Source: an uncultured SAR202 cluster bacterium (lineage in GTDB: Bacteria > Chloroflexota > Dehalococcoidia > Lucifugimonadales > Lucifugimonadaceae). Taken from it: a stretch of DNA of 51,935 nucleotides. Below are positions 11,844 through 28,368 of this stretch, one piece after another. The translations under genes and the position numbers were made by a program. Each line of letters starts with the position of its first letter. Position 1 is the stretch's first letter. The stretch covers positions 1 to 51,935 of the forward strand of contig CACNIC010000006.1 of NCBI GenBank assembly GCA_902620405.1, written 5' to 3'. The notes beneath the pieces were generated by a model. That model was not told the origin of the DNA. It made no database searches and worked only from the letters and a program-made list of their open reading frames with translations.

Positions 11844-13346
11844 ATGAAAAAAGTTCTTATTATTCCAGGAAATACATTTGTATCAAGAAATTATTTTTCA
11901 TCTCCAATGATAGAAAATTTAAAAAGAATTTCTGTAAAGGATAATATAAAAATAATTGTGGCTGAGATAGAAAGCAATCCTGTCCCAAATGAAACTTTTG
12001 ATAAATTAAAAGAAATTTTTGAGGATGATTACAATGTACAATTTGTAAAACTAATCAAAAATCCTGAATCATTTATTGAAAGGTTAATTTGGTACCTAAA
12101 AAATAGTTTTCTCCACAAGGCTTTAACTTACAGGTTTAACGAAATAAATAATTTTATTACACAAAAAAGATTTAAAGATATAACAAATACTCAAATAAAA
12201 AAGGATGATAAAAAATATTTGTGGGACTCAGACATATGGCCAAAATATTTCGGATTTCCTTTCCCTAAATCTAAGTTAATTTTTAAAATTCTCTATTCCT
12301 TATTTTCATCGACCCTTTTTTCAAAGAATAAAATTATTGATGAAAATCTTAAGAATCTAAAACCAGATCTTGTTATTTTAGGTGACATACAAAACTCGGT
12401 AAGTTTTAGTTATTTTAAATTGTGCAAAAAATACAAAATTAAAATTTGTGGAAATGTAAGAACTTGGGATCATTTAACTAAAAATGGACCTGTAATTAAC
12501 GGATTAGACGAATATTGGGTTTGGAATCCTATTATGAAAGAAGAATTAATTAAATTCCACAAGATTAATATAGACAAAATTTATGAAGTTGGGTCTCCAC
12601 AATTTGATTATTATTTGAATAATAAAGAAGCCAACAAGGATTTAGTGGAATACTTCAAAGTTAAAAATCCTGAAGATGAATTCTCATTAAAAAATGACTC
12701 TTCTATACTTTTTTTTGCAACCAATAGGCCGCACAGAGGAATAGGGGAAGAGTCAATTATTCACCATATTTGTGAAAATATAGCTTTAGGTGCATACCCT
12801 GATAAAGATATAACTATTATTTTAAGATCACATCCATACGATAATACTTTTGAAAAAAGATTTGAAGAATTCAAAAAATACCCATTTGTCAGATTATTTA
12901 GTTCGCCGCCACTTACTAATTTCATTCCTTCAGAATTTAGGGAAGATATGATTAAAGTGAATTTGCTCCTTGAAAGAACAAAGTTGGTAATTTGTGGCCA
13001 AAGTACATTTGCAATAGACTCAGCTTGCACTGATACGCCTATAATTAATATTTCTTTTGAAGGAGATGTAAAGGTTGATGAAAAATTATCAGTAAAAAAT
13101 AGATATAATGTTGATCATTATCAAAAGCTCTTATCTTTTAATGGAACCAAGATTGCTGATAGTTTTAAATCATTAGATGAAATGATCATCGAATACTTAA
13201 AGGACCCTACCATAGATAGACAGGGTAGAAATTTGATAAATAAAAATTTTGCTGGATTTTCTGAAAAACCATCCTCCGAAAGAATAACTGAGAGAATTCT
13301 TCTTAATTTAATGGTGGCAACGGGAGGATTTGAACCTCCGACCTAG
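11844..13346 (+). CDS. GT-B-like surface polysaccharide transferase, unassigned
   Basis: 500 aa. No exact family is assigned, but the architecture suggests a GT-B fold like that of capsule or CDP-glycerol transferases: an N-terminal half ending LKPDLVILGDIQNS, then WVWNPIMKEELIKF and IYEVGSPQFDYY, then RSHPYD and VICGQSTFAIDSACTDTPIINIS, typical of donor-binding regions. No signal peptide or membrane segment is seen. The frame runs 35 bases into the oppositely oriented tRNA-Met, so the last 12 residues (MVATGGFEPPT) are antisense tRNA sequence; this is the natural stop of the open frame, but it makes an odd C-terminus. TAAAAT five bases before the ATG suggests a leaderless start. Confidence 0.65.
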   Translation: MKKVLIIPGNTFVSRNYFSSPMIENLKRISVKDNIKIIVAEIESNPVPNETFDKLKEIFEDDYNVQFVKLIKNPESFIERLIWYLKNSFLHKALTYRFNEINNFITQKRFKDITNTQIKKDDKKYLWDSDIWPKYFGFPFPKSKLIFKILYSLFSSTLFSKNKIIDENLKNLKPDLVILGDIQNSVSFSYFKLCKKYKIKICGNVRTWDHLTKNGPVINGLDEYWVWNPIMKEELIKFHKINIDKIYEVGSPQFDYYLNNKEANKDLVEYFKVKNPEDEFSLKNDSSILFFATNRPHRGIGEESIIHHICENIALGAYPDKDITIILRSHPYDNTFEKRFEEFKKYPFVRLFSSPPLTNFIPSEFREDMIKVNLLLERTKLVICGQSTFAIDSACTDTPIINISFEGDVKVDEKLSVKNRYNVDHYQKLLSFNGTKIADSFKSLDEMIIEYLKDPTIDRQGRNLINKNFAGFSEKPSSERITERILLNLMVATGGFEPPT

Positions 13347-13387
13347 GCCTTATGAAGACCCCGCTCTGACCCCTGAGCTACGTTGCC
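13312..13387 (-). tRNA. tRNA-Met (CAT), elongator type
   Basis: Read on the minus strand: acceptor GGCAACG/CGTTGCC, D arm GCTC/GAGC, anticodon stem GGGTC/GGCCT with loop TTCATAA (anticodon CAT at 13352-13354), T arm GGAGG-TTCAAAT-CCTCC, discriminator A and an encoded CCA at 13312-13314. The G1-C72 pair rules out the formylatable initiator, and the 5' half (GGC-ACGTAGCTCAG) matches typical elongator tRNA-Met. tRNA-Ile with a lysidine-modified CAT is the alternative. The 3' half overlaps the end of the opposing transferase frame. Confidence 0.93.
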
Positions 13388-13462: not shown

Positions 13463-14341
13463 TTATCTTGAAAAATCACCACTTCTGCCACCTGATTTTT
13501 TTATTAATTTTATATCTGTAATATATGCTGATTTATCGACTGCCTTACACATGTCATATATAGTAACGCAAGCTATAGAAACCCCAGTAAAAGCTTCAAT
13601 TTCAACTCCTGTTTTCCAGTCAGCTTTGGTAGTGCAAATAACATTAAGGCCTGGAAGTTCTTCATCTGGTTCAATTTCAATTTTTATTTCATTTAAAGGT
13701 ATTGTATGGCATAAAGGTATCAGTGTAGGTGTGGATTTAGCTGCAGTAATTCCTGCTGTTCTAGAAAGAGTAAATATATCTCCTTTAACCAATTCCCCTT
13801 TTTTAATAATATCAAGAGTTTCCTTTTTCATAACCACTTTTCCTGAAACTATTGCACTCCTTGATGTTATTTCTTTTTCAGAAACATCCACCATTTTTAT
13901 GCTCCCATCTGAATCAATATGAGAAAGTTCTTTTAAATTATTTTTTTTTAATTCGTTAATTGCACTTACAGCTAAATTATCAGCTACTTCATTAAATTTA
14001 TTTCCTGAATGACCTTTAACCCATTCCCATTCGACAATTCTTTTTTCTAATAATTTATCGAGTTGATCCCAAAGATCATTATTTGCATTTCTTTTCCAAT
14101 TTTTAGTAATTGTGTTTATTACGTAAGTACTATCAGAATAAATTTTTACCTTGTCATCATTTTTTAATTCTTCAAGTTCAAGGCTCTTTATAACAGCAGT
14201 AATCTCCATTCTGTTATTTGTTGTCTCAAGCTCAGAACCACTTATTTCTTTTTCTTCACCAGACTCAAAAATAATTATTGCTCCCCATCCGCCCATCCCG
14301 GGGTTTACTGAGCATGCTCCATCAGTATAAATTTTAATCAT
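13463..14341 (-). CDS. Fusion: ribonuclease HI - MoaC (cyclic pyranopterin monophosphate synthase)
   Basis: 292 aa with two complete catalytic domains in one frame. Residues 1-130 are RNase HI: D7 (YTDGAC), E46 (NNRMEIT), D70 (YSDST), H111 (KGHSG) and D121 (VADNLA) are all present, so it should cut RNA in RNA-DNA hybrids. Residues about 138-292 are MoaC: MVDVSEK, GDIF, AAK202, PLC211-H212, IYDMCKA (D263, K266) and the KKSGGRSGDF end, which converts the MoaA product to cyclic pyranopterin monophosphate. The linker is short and charged. The start overlaps the aldolase stop by 4 bases (ATGA). Normally these are two unrelated proteins; the link is not explained by a shared pathway. moaA is 2.2 kb away on the same strand. 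Confidence 0.92.
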   Translation of the reverse strand: MIKIYTDGACSVNPGMGGWGAIIIFESGEEKEISGSELETTNNRMEITAVIKSLELEELKNDDKVKIYSDSTYVINTITKNWKRNANNDLWDQLDKLLEKRIVEWEWVKGHSGNKFNEVADNLAVSAINELKKNNLKELSHIDSDGSIKMVDVSEKEITSRSAIVSGKVVMKKETLDIIKKGELVKGDIFTLSRTAGITAAKSTPTLIPLCHTIPLNEIKIEIEPDEELPGLNVICTTKADWKTGVEIEAFTGVSIACVTIYDMCKAVDKSAYITDIKLIKKSGGRSGDFSR

Positions 14342-15258
14342 GCTGATTTATAAATATCCATAATTTCTCGCATTAATGATAAACCTTCATCAAAAGGTCT
14401 TTGGAATGAATTCCTGCCAACTATTGAGCCGAATCCACCACCATTTGCAATTGCTTGTATTTCATCAAGAATTTCCTCTTTGCCCTTAGCTGGTCCACCG
14501 GAAAAAATAACTATTCTTTTGCCGTTAAAAGCTGATTGAATACAATGAGAAATTCTGTCAGAAAGAGTTTTAATTTTGATATCATTTTTCATATATAATT
14601 CTGAAATATCATCTTTACTAATATGTGCTGAAGGGGGTTTAATTTTTATAATATCTGCCCCCATTTGAGCTGCTATATGAGCTGCATAACTGATAACATC
14701 TACCGCTGTTTCATCTTCTTTTTTTAATTTTCCACCCCTCGGATAACTCCAAACAACCACAGCCAGTCCTTTTGATTTTGCTTCAAAAGTAATTTTTCTC
14801 AATTCTTCATACATTTTAGGAGATGAATCTGATCCAGGGTATATAGAAAATCCTACTGCTACACACCCCAACCTTACTGCATCATCTACAGATGAAGTCA
14901 TAATTTGTGTTGGATCTCCACCAAATAAAGAATCAGAATTATTTAATTTTAAAATTAATGGAAGTTTTTCAGAAAATCTTTTTGCTCCATGTTCTAAAAA
15001 ACCCAGAGGAGCGGCATATGCATTACAACCTGCCTCAATGGCAAAATTAAAATGATAATCAGGATCATATGCTTCTGGATTTGGTGCAAATGATTTTGAT
15101 GGTCCATGCTCAAAGCCCTGATCGACTGGCAATATAACTAACTTTCCAGTGCCCCCTAAGTAGCCTGAATTGAGTAACCTTTCGATATTTTTTTGGACAT
15201 TATTATTTTCGTGTTGATACCAAGAAAGAATTTGATTAACTTTTTCAGAATTTTTCAT
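14338..15258 (-). CDS. fba: Class I fructose-bisphosphate aldolase, DhnA/archaeal type
   Basis: 306 aa. Hallmarks of the DhnA-type class I aldolase are VDQGFEHGP (45-53), the GGDPTQIM segment (113-120), and DIIKIKPPS (202-210), which carries the Schiff-base lysine (K205 or K207). SGGPAKGKEEIL and GSIVGRNSFQRPFDEG form the phosphate-binding end. It makes or cleaves fructose-1,6-bisphosphate in glycolysis/gluconeogenesis. The ATG is preceded by a GGAGAAG site. It is divergent from the FBPase-HTH gene across 77 bases and co-transcribed with the RNase HI-MoaC fusion. The pairing with FBPase suggests a gluconeogenic control unit. Confidence 0.9.
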   Translation of the reverse strand: MKNSEKVNQILSWYQHENNNVQKNIERLLNSGYLGGTGKLVILPVDQGFEHGPSKSFAPNPEAYDPDYHFNFAIEAGCNAYAAPLGFLEHGAKRFSEKLPLILKLNNSDSLFGGDPTQIMTSSVDDAVRLGCVAVGFSIYPGSDSSPKMYEELRKITFEAKSKGLAVVVWSYPRGGKLKKEDETAVDVISYAAHIAAQMGADIIKIKPPSAHISKDDISELYMKNDIKIKTLSDRISHCIQSAFNGKRIVIFSGGPAKGKEEILDEIQAIANGGGFGSIVGRNSFQRPFDEGLSLMREIMDIYKSA

Positions 15259-15335
15259 AATTTACTTCTCCAAGATGCAATTATAAGAAATATAGTTTAA
15301 TTTAATATATAGCAAAACATGATTAAAAAAAATAA

Positions 15336-16547
15336 ATGAACCTCCTTAGCTATTTAAATAAAGAGTTGGCTGGAAAAAGTGATGAAAATCTCGAATTAAT
15401 TTCGGTAATTTGTTCAGTTGCTGACTCAACTGTAGACATTGCAATGGACACAAGAGTAACTGGCCTTAAACAGATCAGAGGCTCAGCAAATGAGATAAAC
15501 GTCCAAGGTGAAGAAGTTCAAATGCTTGACCAAATTGCTAATAAGTCTTTAATTGATTCACTTTCAAAAAATAGCTCTTGCGCCGGTTATGCTAGTGAAG
15601 AAATAGACGAGCCATTAATTTTTAATCAATCTTCAAGATTTATGGTAGTCGCAGACCCTTTGGATGGCTCATCAAATATATCGGTTAATATGCCTATTGG
15701 TACAATATTTGGAATAATTAGAAACACTGATTATGGAGTGAGCAGTTTTAATAAATCTGGCCGATATTATATAAGTGCTGGATATTCATTATATGGACCA
15801 TCGGACATATTTGTTATTTGCGTAAACAATAAAGTTAGTGAGTTTACTCTTGATCCAAAAAAGAAAGAATATCAACTATCTAGGGATGATATTAAAATTC
15901 CAAGAACTGGTTCTATATATTCAATTAATGAAGGAAACTTCATTTCATGGGAAGATAATATTAAAAAATGGGTACTTAATAATAAAAATCCTACGGGCTC
16001 ATCTAGTAAAAGAAAAACTCTCAGATACGTCGGGTCTCTTGTAGCGGATGCTCATAGAACTTTGATAAATGGAGGTATTTTTGCATATCCTCCAGATAAG
16101 TCTCAGCCTGAAGGGAAGCTCAGATTGATGTACGAGGCAAACCCTTTAGCATTACTTTTCACATCTGCTGGAGGAAATGCAGTATCAATAGATAAAGAAA
16201 TACTTGATATTGAACCTGAAAATTTTCATCAAAGAACTCCTCTTATTCTAGGTTCGAAAGATGATATTGATGACTTCATGAATTTTACTACCTCCGGAAG
16301 AAGTTCGTTCAAAGAGACACCTGAAATTAGTCCAATTTTTAAATGGAATAAAGTTAATATTGCCAAACTTAGGTCACGGTTGGGTCTTAGCAGATCTCGT
16401 TTTGGAAAAAAAGTTGGTGTAACAAGAGGGACAGTTCTTAGGTGGGAATCAGGAGATGTTTCACCGAACTTAAGTAACAATAAGGCACTTGACAGTATCT
16501 ATTTATCAACAAGAAAAGAATTGCTACAAAACCCACTTGATACTTAA
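15336..16547 (+). CDS. fbp: Fructose-1,6-bisphosphatase class I fused to a C-terminal XRE-type HTH domain
   Basis: 403 aa, about 70 more than a standard class I FBPase. Residues 1-315 are the catalytic domain: SEE (87-89), DPLDGSSNI (107-115), the substrate segment GSLVADAHRTL (233-243), and KLRLMYEANP (261-270) with the metal-ligand Glu267. Residues about 340-395 are a helix-turn-helix of the XRE/Cro type (IAKLRSRLGLSRSRFGKKVG, then VTRGTVLRWESGDVSPN), joined by a short linker. The enzyme removes the 1-phosphate in gluconeogenesis; the added domain should bind DNA. Divergent orientation to aldolase suggests autoregulation or metabolite-sensing control, which is inference. A six-codon ORF (15319-15339) ends on the start codon in an ATGA overlap. 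The 3' end stops one base from moaA. Confidence 0.92.
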   Translation: MNLLSYLNKELAGKSDENLELISVICSVADSTVDIAMDTRVTGLKQIRGSANEINVQGEEVQMLDQIANKSLIDSLSKNSSCAGYASEEIDEPLIFNQSSRFMVVADPLDGSSNISVNMPIGTIFGIIRNTDYGVSSFNKSGRYYISAGYSLYGPSDIFVICVNNKVSEFTLDPKKKEYQLSRDDIKIPRTGSIYSINEGNFISWEDNIKKWVLNNKNPTGSSSKRKTLRYVGSLVADAHRTLINGGIFAYPPDKSQPEGKLRLMYEANPLALLFTSAGGNAVSIDKEILDIEPENFHQRTPLILGSKDDIDDFMNFTTSGRSSFKETPEISPIFKWNKVNIAKLRSRLGLSRSRFGKKVGVTRGTVLRWESGDVSPNLSNNKALDSIYLSTRKELLQNPLDT

Positions 16548-28185: not shown

Positions 28186-28368
28186 ATGAAGTTAACAGCG
28201 TACAGTGTTAAATTAAAGAAAGTTGTTGAAATTGCTAACCCTAAAATAGTTACAATGAAGAATGGCCGAAAGGCAGTTCAAGGTGTAGCTGCTGAGGATC
28301 CATCTTCAAAAGTATTTAGAATACTTAGCGACAAAGATGTTGCTGAAGTTGAAAAGCAAATAGGCTAA
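28186..28368 (+). CDS. Small DUF5679-like protein lacking its zinc-ribbon cysteines
   Basis: 60 aa. The pattern AYSVKLKKVVEIANPKIVT, then KNGRKAVQG and KVFRIL, follows the small DUF5679 family, in which AYCVKCK and CPxCG pairs form a zinc ribbon. Here both cysteine pairs are replaced: S-V-K-L in the first, and AAEDPSS in place of the second. The ORF is intact, has an excellent AGGAGG ribosome site, its own promoter and a terminator, so it is expressed rather than decaying. Function of the family is unknown; a ribosome- or nucleic-acid-associated role is only a guess. Confidence 0.75.
   Translation: MKLTAYSVKLKKVVEIANPKIVTMKNGRKAVQGVAAEDPSSKVFRILSDKDVAEVEKQIG

Follow-up and report, generated by a model that had tools for sequence, protein, structure and literature searches.

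A fructose-1,6-bisphosphatase with a C-terminal helix-turn-helix domain

An open reading frame at positions 15336–16547 (+) of the window (the whole 51,935-nucleotide stretch of DNA analysed here, from an uncultured SAR202 cluster bacterium) encodes a 403-residue protein, uninterrupted by internal stops, in which a complete class I fructose-1,6-bisphosphatase (FBPase) is fused to a C-terminal helix-turn-helix (HTH) domain. The source genome (0.97 Mb, 70% complete) groups with uncultured Chloroflexi. The FBPase part, residues 1–318 (15336–16289, +), is defined by Pfam families PF00316 and PF18913, Foldseek matches and its catalytic residues. It is followed by a linker of low pLDDT, residues 319–337 (16290–16346, +), which ends in a conserved PIFKW stretch, and by a lambda-repressor-type (XRE/Cro) HTH, residues 338–398 (16347–16529, +), assigned from the HTH_3 family, its structural model and its match to the P22 c2 repressor. 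Each Pfam match in the window protein exceeds the curated cut-off of its family: the FBPase N-terminal domain spans residues 19–183 (E = 2.2e-35), FBPase_C residues 188–317 (E = 3.7e-42) and HTH_3 residues 342–381 (28.3 bits against a cut-off of 23, E = 1.9e-6). All three families were matched in each of the seven genus members scanned.

The initial annotation had proposed this fusion, with an HTH starting near residue 340, and had named related genomes carrying the same fusion, and an intact junction, as the points to check. The proposal holds: the single frame recurs at full length in nine of the ten genomes of the genus, the eight other proteins being 53–96% identical to that of the window, and the HTH begins at about residue 338. 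As these nine separate genomes all show the same junction, a frameshift or assembly artefact at 16290–16350 is ruled out. Two of the fusion-bearing relatives are the metagenome-assembled genomes RS659 and MCMED-G30. In the tenth genome of the genus (G007, 59% complete), neither FBPase nor aldolase was detected.

Distribution and origin

In the order (250 genomes), some 90 genomes besides those with the fusion encode an FBPase, with no match extending into an HTH, and the FBPase–HTH fusion was not found in samples of the class (393 genomes) and the phylum (400 genomes). Plasmids and viral contigs likewise gave no FBPase match that extends into an HTH. Reading through 22 frames (15 mostly of unusual length and 7 viral-contig loci) revealed a C-terminal HTH in none; the long-looking FBPase frames are explained by N-terminal read-through or short unrelated tails. 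A contig scan with the single fusion protein, which finds close relatives only, matched just two congeners. Phyla other than that of the window were covered through the plasmids, the viral contigs and one scan sensitive to close relatives. A tree of FBPase parts from the fusions and selected relatives unites the fusions in a single group (support 100/99), whose neighbour is the HTH-less FBPase of G042, a genome of the same family. As far as these searches reach, the sequences compared suggest a single origin of the fusion, in this genus.

The FBPase part is probably the working enzyme of the genus

The FBPase part aligns with solved FBPases to about residue 318 (phmmer), and Foldseek matches it to them with 34–38% identity and a target-normalised TM-score of up to 0.94; both Pfam domains above cut-off, together with this fold, identify a class I FBPase. 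The motifs DPLDGSS, SEE, KLRxxYE and RYVGS of the class are all present. Residues kept in the window protein comprise D65, E88/E89, the DPLDGSS motif (107–113), N198, R230/Y231, Y251, K261, R263 and E267, which we take, from the mammalian enzyme, to have metal- and substrate-binding roles. The annotation's description of a complete enzyme with intact metal and substrate motifs is thus borne out by domains and residues alike. The AMP-site loop of mammalian FBPase, T-G-E-x-T, was not found: in the phmmer alignment to 1bk4 the window protein reads S-D-E-N-L, and this region varies within the genus. The window protein therefore does not have the loop that marks an AMP-inhibited class I FBPase.

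Each fusion-bearing genome of the genus has one class I FBPase and no second FBPase was detected in it. Searches of all ten genus genomes gave no FBPase of the GlpX type and no PfkA match above the family cut-off, and both searches were positive in control genomes; with genus genomes 55–89% complete, single absences mean little and ten successive absences are informative. Given that it is the sole class I FBPase per genome and has intact catalytic residues, the fusion protein is most likely a working enzyme, and is probably the gluconeogenic FBPase of the genus.

Linker and HTH domain

The linker is predicted to be mostly disordered, with pLDDT below 50 at residues 321–333 of the full-length model; at its end, I334, F335 and W337 are conserved among the fusions. 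The C-terminal domain models as an HTH, as the annotation had anticipated: an HTH-only model, built from the fusion rows alone, has five helices and a mean pLDDT of 90.9, with the recognition helix at about residues 364–372 (RGTVLRWES). This five-helix fold and the HTH_3 match above cut-off place it among XRE/Cro (lambda-repressor-like) HTHs. A profile of the fused HTHs has the P22 c2 repressor, in its operator complexes 3jxb and 2r1j, as top match (E = 2.5e-6), and Foldseek superposes the model on operator-bound P22 c2 (3jxb) with an r.m.s.d. of 1.0–1.1 Å over 52 aligned columns; the probability is 1.00, and the E-values are weak (about 0.01), which is common with folds of this size. Sequence and model thus support assignment of the domain to the operator-binding type.

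The window HTH has a pI of 11 and a net charge of +8; across the genus fusions, the HTHs are basic (pI 9.5–11) whereas the FBPase parts are acidic (pI 4.9–6.9). The fused HTHs of the genus are 38–96% identical to that of the window. For pairs with informative dS, dN/dS is 0.05–0.16 in the HTH versus 0.02–0.07 in the FBPase part, several other genus pairs being saturated at silent sites; by this measure, the HTH is under purifying selection. A chance HTH is ruled out by its conservation, its confidently predicted fold and the purifying selection on it.

Next to exonuclease III, eight of these ten genomes encode a stand-alone HTH protein of 115–130 residues with a conserved C-terminal ...LPI end (loci L042–L049; at L048, 1501–1632). 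It is about 33–43% identical to the fused HTH of the window, and is a possible source of the fused domain through duplication.

Divergent aldolase gene and shared intergenic region

The product of the neighbouring gene at 14338–15258 (−) scores 481.9 bits for NCBIfam NF006704 (cut-off 277), which identifies it as a fructose-bisphosphate aldolase of class I (DeoC/LacD-type, PRK09250). The aldolase gene (fba) had been annotated as facing the FBPase gene (fbp) across 77 bases, and the arrangement is confirmed: the two are head to head in the window and in the seven other genus genomes comparable there. The contig of the ninth fusion genome (G003) stops short of the aldolase, and this genome was left out of the comparison. 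The genome of a sister lineage, G042, appears to have fbp divergent from a different aldolase type, and its FBPase is without an HTH. The divergent layout therefore does not need the HTH and may be older than the fusion. In relatives (loci L067, L068 and L069), the aldolase near fbp is of a type other than the DeoC/LacD-type class I enzyme of the genus.

The shared intergenic region (15259–15335), with the candidate regulated promoters, is 77 bp long in the window and 68–80 bp across the genus, and has a conserved central block. Within it lies an 18-bp element, AGAAATATAGTTTAAYTT (15286–15303), a candidate operator that may equally be a promoter. With at most one mismatch allowed, the element occurs once and no more in each of eight genus genomes, at the fba–fbp intergenic locus only, and was not found in the other two, G006 and G007. 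In the eight genomes that carry it, the recognition helix follows the pattern [TS]R[GA]T[VI]LRWE; in G006 the helix reads EQSTVRKWE and the intergenic sequence differs. This covariation of helix and element agrees with a single local target, and counts as one evolutionary event, because the recognition helix changed in one genome only. No clear conserved palindrome was found in the fba–fbp intergenic regions, where candidates were weak and not conserved, and a consensus promoter scan returned sites no more numerous than in shuffled sequences. Conservation of the region is high, not exceptional: the promoter region of coxB, close by, reaches a similar level, so the intergenic block may consist of overlapping promoters alone.

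The gene cluster that holds the FBPase fusion has a second fusion, a 292-residue reading frame at 13463–14341 (−) that joins RNase HI (residues 3–128) to MoaC (residues 150–285). It is 288–291 residues long across the genus genomes compared. In G087 (L068), from the same order, the RNase HI and MoaC genes are separate neighbours in the cluster order fbp–aldolase–rdgB-like–moaA–rnhA–moaC. Elsewhere in the window, a tRNA-Met (CAT) gene at 13312–13387 (−) overlaps the 3′ end of the reading frame at 11844–13346 (+), whose C terminus, ...VATGGFEPPT, is the translated antisense of the tRNA. A 60-residue reading frame at 28186–28368 (+), between phenylalanyl-tRNA synthetase-like and aldo/keto reductase-like genes, coincides with the window's most conserved stretch between flanking genes in comparison with G004.

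Candidate regulatory mechanism

By sequence and model, the protein combines an intact enzyme part with a DNA-binding part, which is the layout of a trigger enzyme. The reading that we favour, and to which we give an even chance, is that of a bifunctional trigger enzyme whose own amount feeds back on the fba and fbp promoters. The sole detected FBPase of the genus would perform the gluconeogenic step as an oligomer (known class I FBPases are tetramers) that carries HTH domains on flexible linkers. These HTHs would occupy the intergenic DNA that fba and fbp share and would repress the two divergent promoters, or tune them in some other way, such that the amount of free enzyme would determine how strongly its own gene and that for the feeding enzyme, aldolase, are transcribed. 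Feedback through protein amount is the simplest logic and the favoured one; modulation by substrate or by an R/T-state change is possible but unsupported. We infer the oligomer, DNA binding, the target site, repression and any response to fructose-1,6-bisphosphate. The conservation of the fusion in nine of ten genomes, the low dN/dS of the HTH, its basic character next to an acidic FBPase, its likeness to P22 c2, the kept catalytic residues, the divergent aldolase and the locus-specific AGAAATATAGTTTAAYTT argue for autoregulation. The absence of a clear palindrome, the coxB-level conservation, the single covariation event and the G042 layout without an HTH argue against it.

The initial annotation had gone further, inferring a one-protein metabolic switch in which an enzyme that sees fructose-1,6-bisphosphate directly would control aldolase and itself. 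That the active enzyme senses fructose-1,6-bisphosphate at its own active site and directly switches the aldolase/FBPase promoter pair is a claim that we find doubtful. The wider form of this idea, in which fructose-1,6-bisphosphate or an allosteric effector at the FBPase part shifts the HTHs and so releases or tightens operator binding, is also unlikely. Large quaternary shifts between R and T states are well known in FBPases and are reflected in the PDB titles of the structural matches, and these shifts, like the intact substrate-binding residues of the window protein, would suit a ligand switch. The S-D-E-N-L loop at the AMP site, variable in the genus, points the other way, and the predicted disorder of the linker weakens the case for rigid coupling between FBPase and HTH. 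The Q1 chimera, which joins the BzdR HTH to E. coli shikimate kinase I and is enzyme and repressor at once, bears on both sides: in vitro it responded to its substrate, shikimate, through the linker, but in vivo catalytic turnover abolished the effector response (PMC3602430). By analogy, an active FBPase would share this turnover problem unless the signal travelled through an allosteric state. Because turnover cancelled the in vivo response of Q1, simple autoregulation is favoured over a direct substrate switch.

It is quite unlikely that the HTH binds DNA elsewhere, whether as a regulator of distant genes or as a loose nucleoid tether for the enzyme. Such a role would accord with the lack of a palindrome between fba and fbp, where the conserved element could be two overlapping promoters; against it, AGAAATATAGTTTAAYTT is conserved and locus-specific, and regulators of the lambda/P22-repressor type often control adjacent genes. 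A non-DNA role, such as protein–protein contact, RNA or ribosome binding, or oligomer stabilization, as in MBF1-like proteins, is very unlikely: hints come from the profile search, in which an MBF1-like protein (2mez, E = 1.7e-4) matches weakly, and from fold matches to ribosome-bound Mbf1/EDF1, but operator-binding repressors and antitoxins match best, and the domain has a strong positive charge and a basic recognition helix. A functionless HTH that hitch-hikes neutrally in a streamlined genome is disfavoured as extremely improbable: the RNase HI–MoaC fusion shows that gene joining occurs in this cluster, but the HTH has a dN/dS of 0.05–0.16 and was retained through divergence to 38% identity.

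Significance

Enzymes joined to DNA-binding domains are an already known kind of protein; a literature search of open-licence papers found no report of an FBPase–HTH fusion. The conserved fusion, confined to one genus in the searches made here, is real, and the switch is hypothetical. The fusion protein and the 77-bp region make a clear, testable pair of parts. If the ligand reading were true, one protein would be metabolic sensor, enzyme and repressor. If the protein is bifunctional, it would give a compact, natural example of the path by which enzymes have been proposed to become regulators (PMC3602430), seen in small-genome bacteria while the enzyme still looks active.

Comparison with known systems

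The window protein shares with class I Fbp (PF00316 and PF18913) the full catalytic fold and residues over a length of about 318 residues, and differs in its 80-residue C-terminal extension with an HTH and, from the mammalian enzyme, in having no AMP-loop motif. With P22 c2/lambda-type XRE repressors (HTH_3) it shares the five-helix fold, a recognition helix ending in W-E and a basic surface; unlike in those repressors, the HTH sits at the C terminus of an enzyme and the operator is a candidate only. CggR, of the SorC family, is a dedicated repressor and not an FBPase, and its effector part is not homologous; the likeness is conceptual, in that CggR ties the transcription of central carbon genes to the level of fructose-1,6-bisphosphate, as the fusion protein might. 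BzdR and the Q1 chimera also link an XRE HTH to a metabolic-enzyme fold. The HTH of BzdR is N-terminal, whereas that of the FBPase fusion is C-terminal, and the enzyme part of BzdR is inactive and controls benzoate genes, whereas the FBPase fusion looks active from its sequence and belongs to a gluconeogenic gene pair. DNA-binding parts are also present in the trigger enzymes PutA, NadR and BirA. The FBPase fusion differs from them in its combination of enzyme and fold, and its regulatory role is inferred from layout; like them, it has a layout that makes the enzyme a candidate regulator of the genes of its own pathway.
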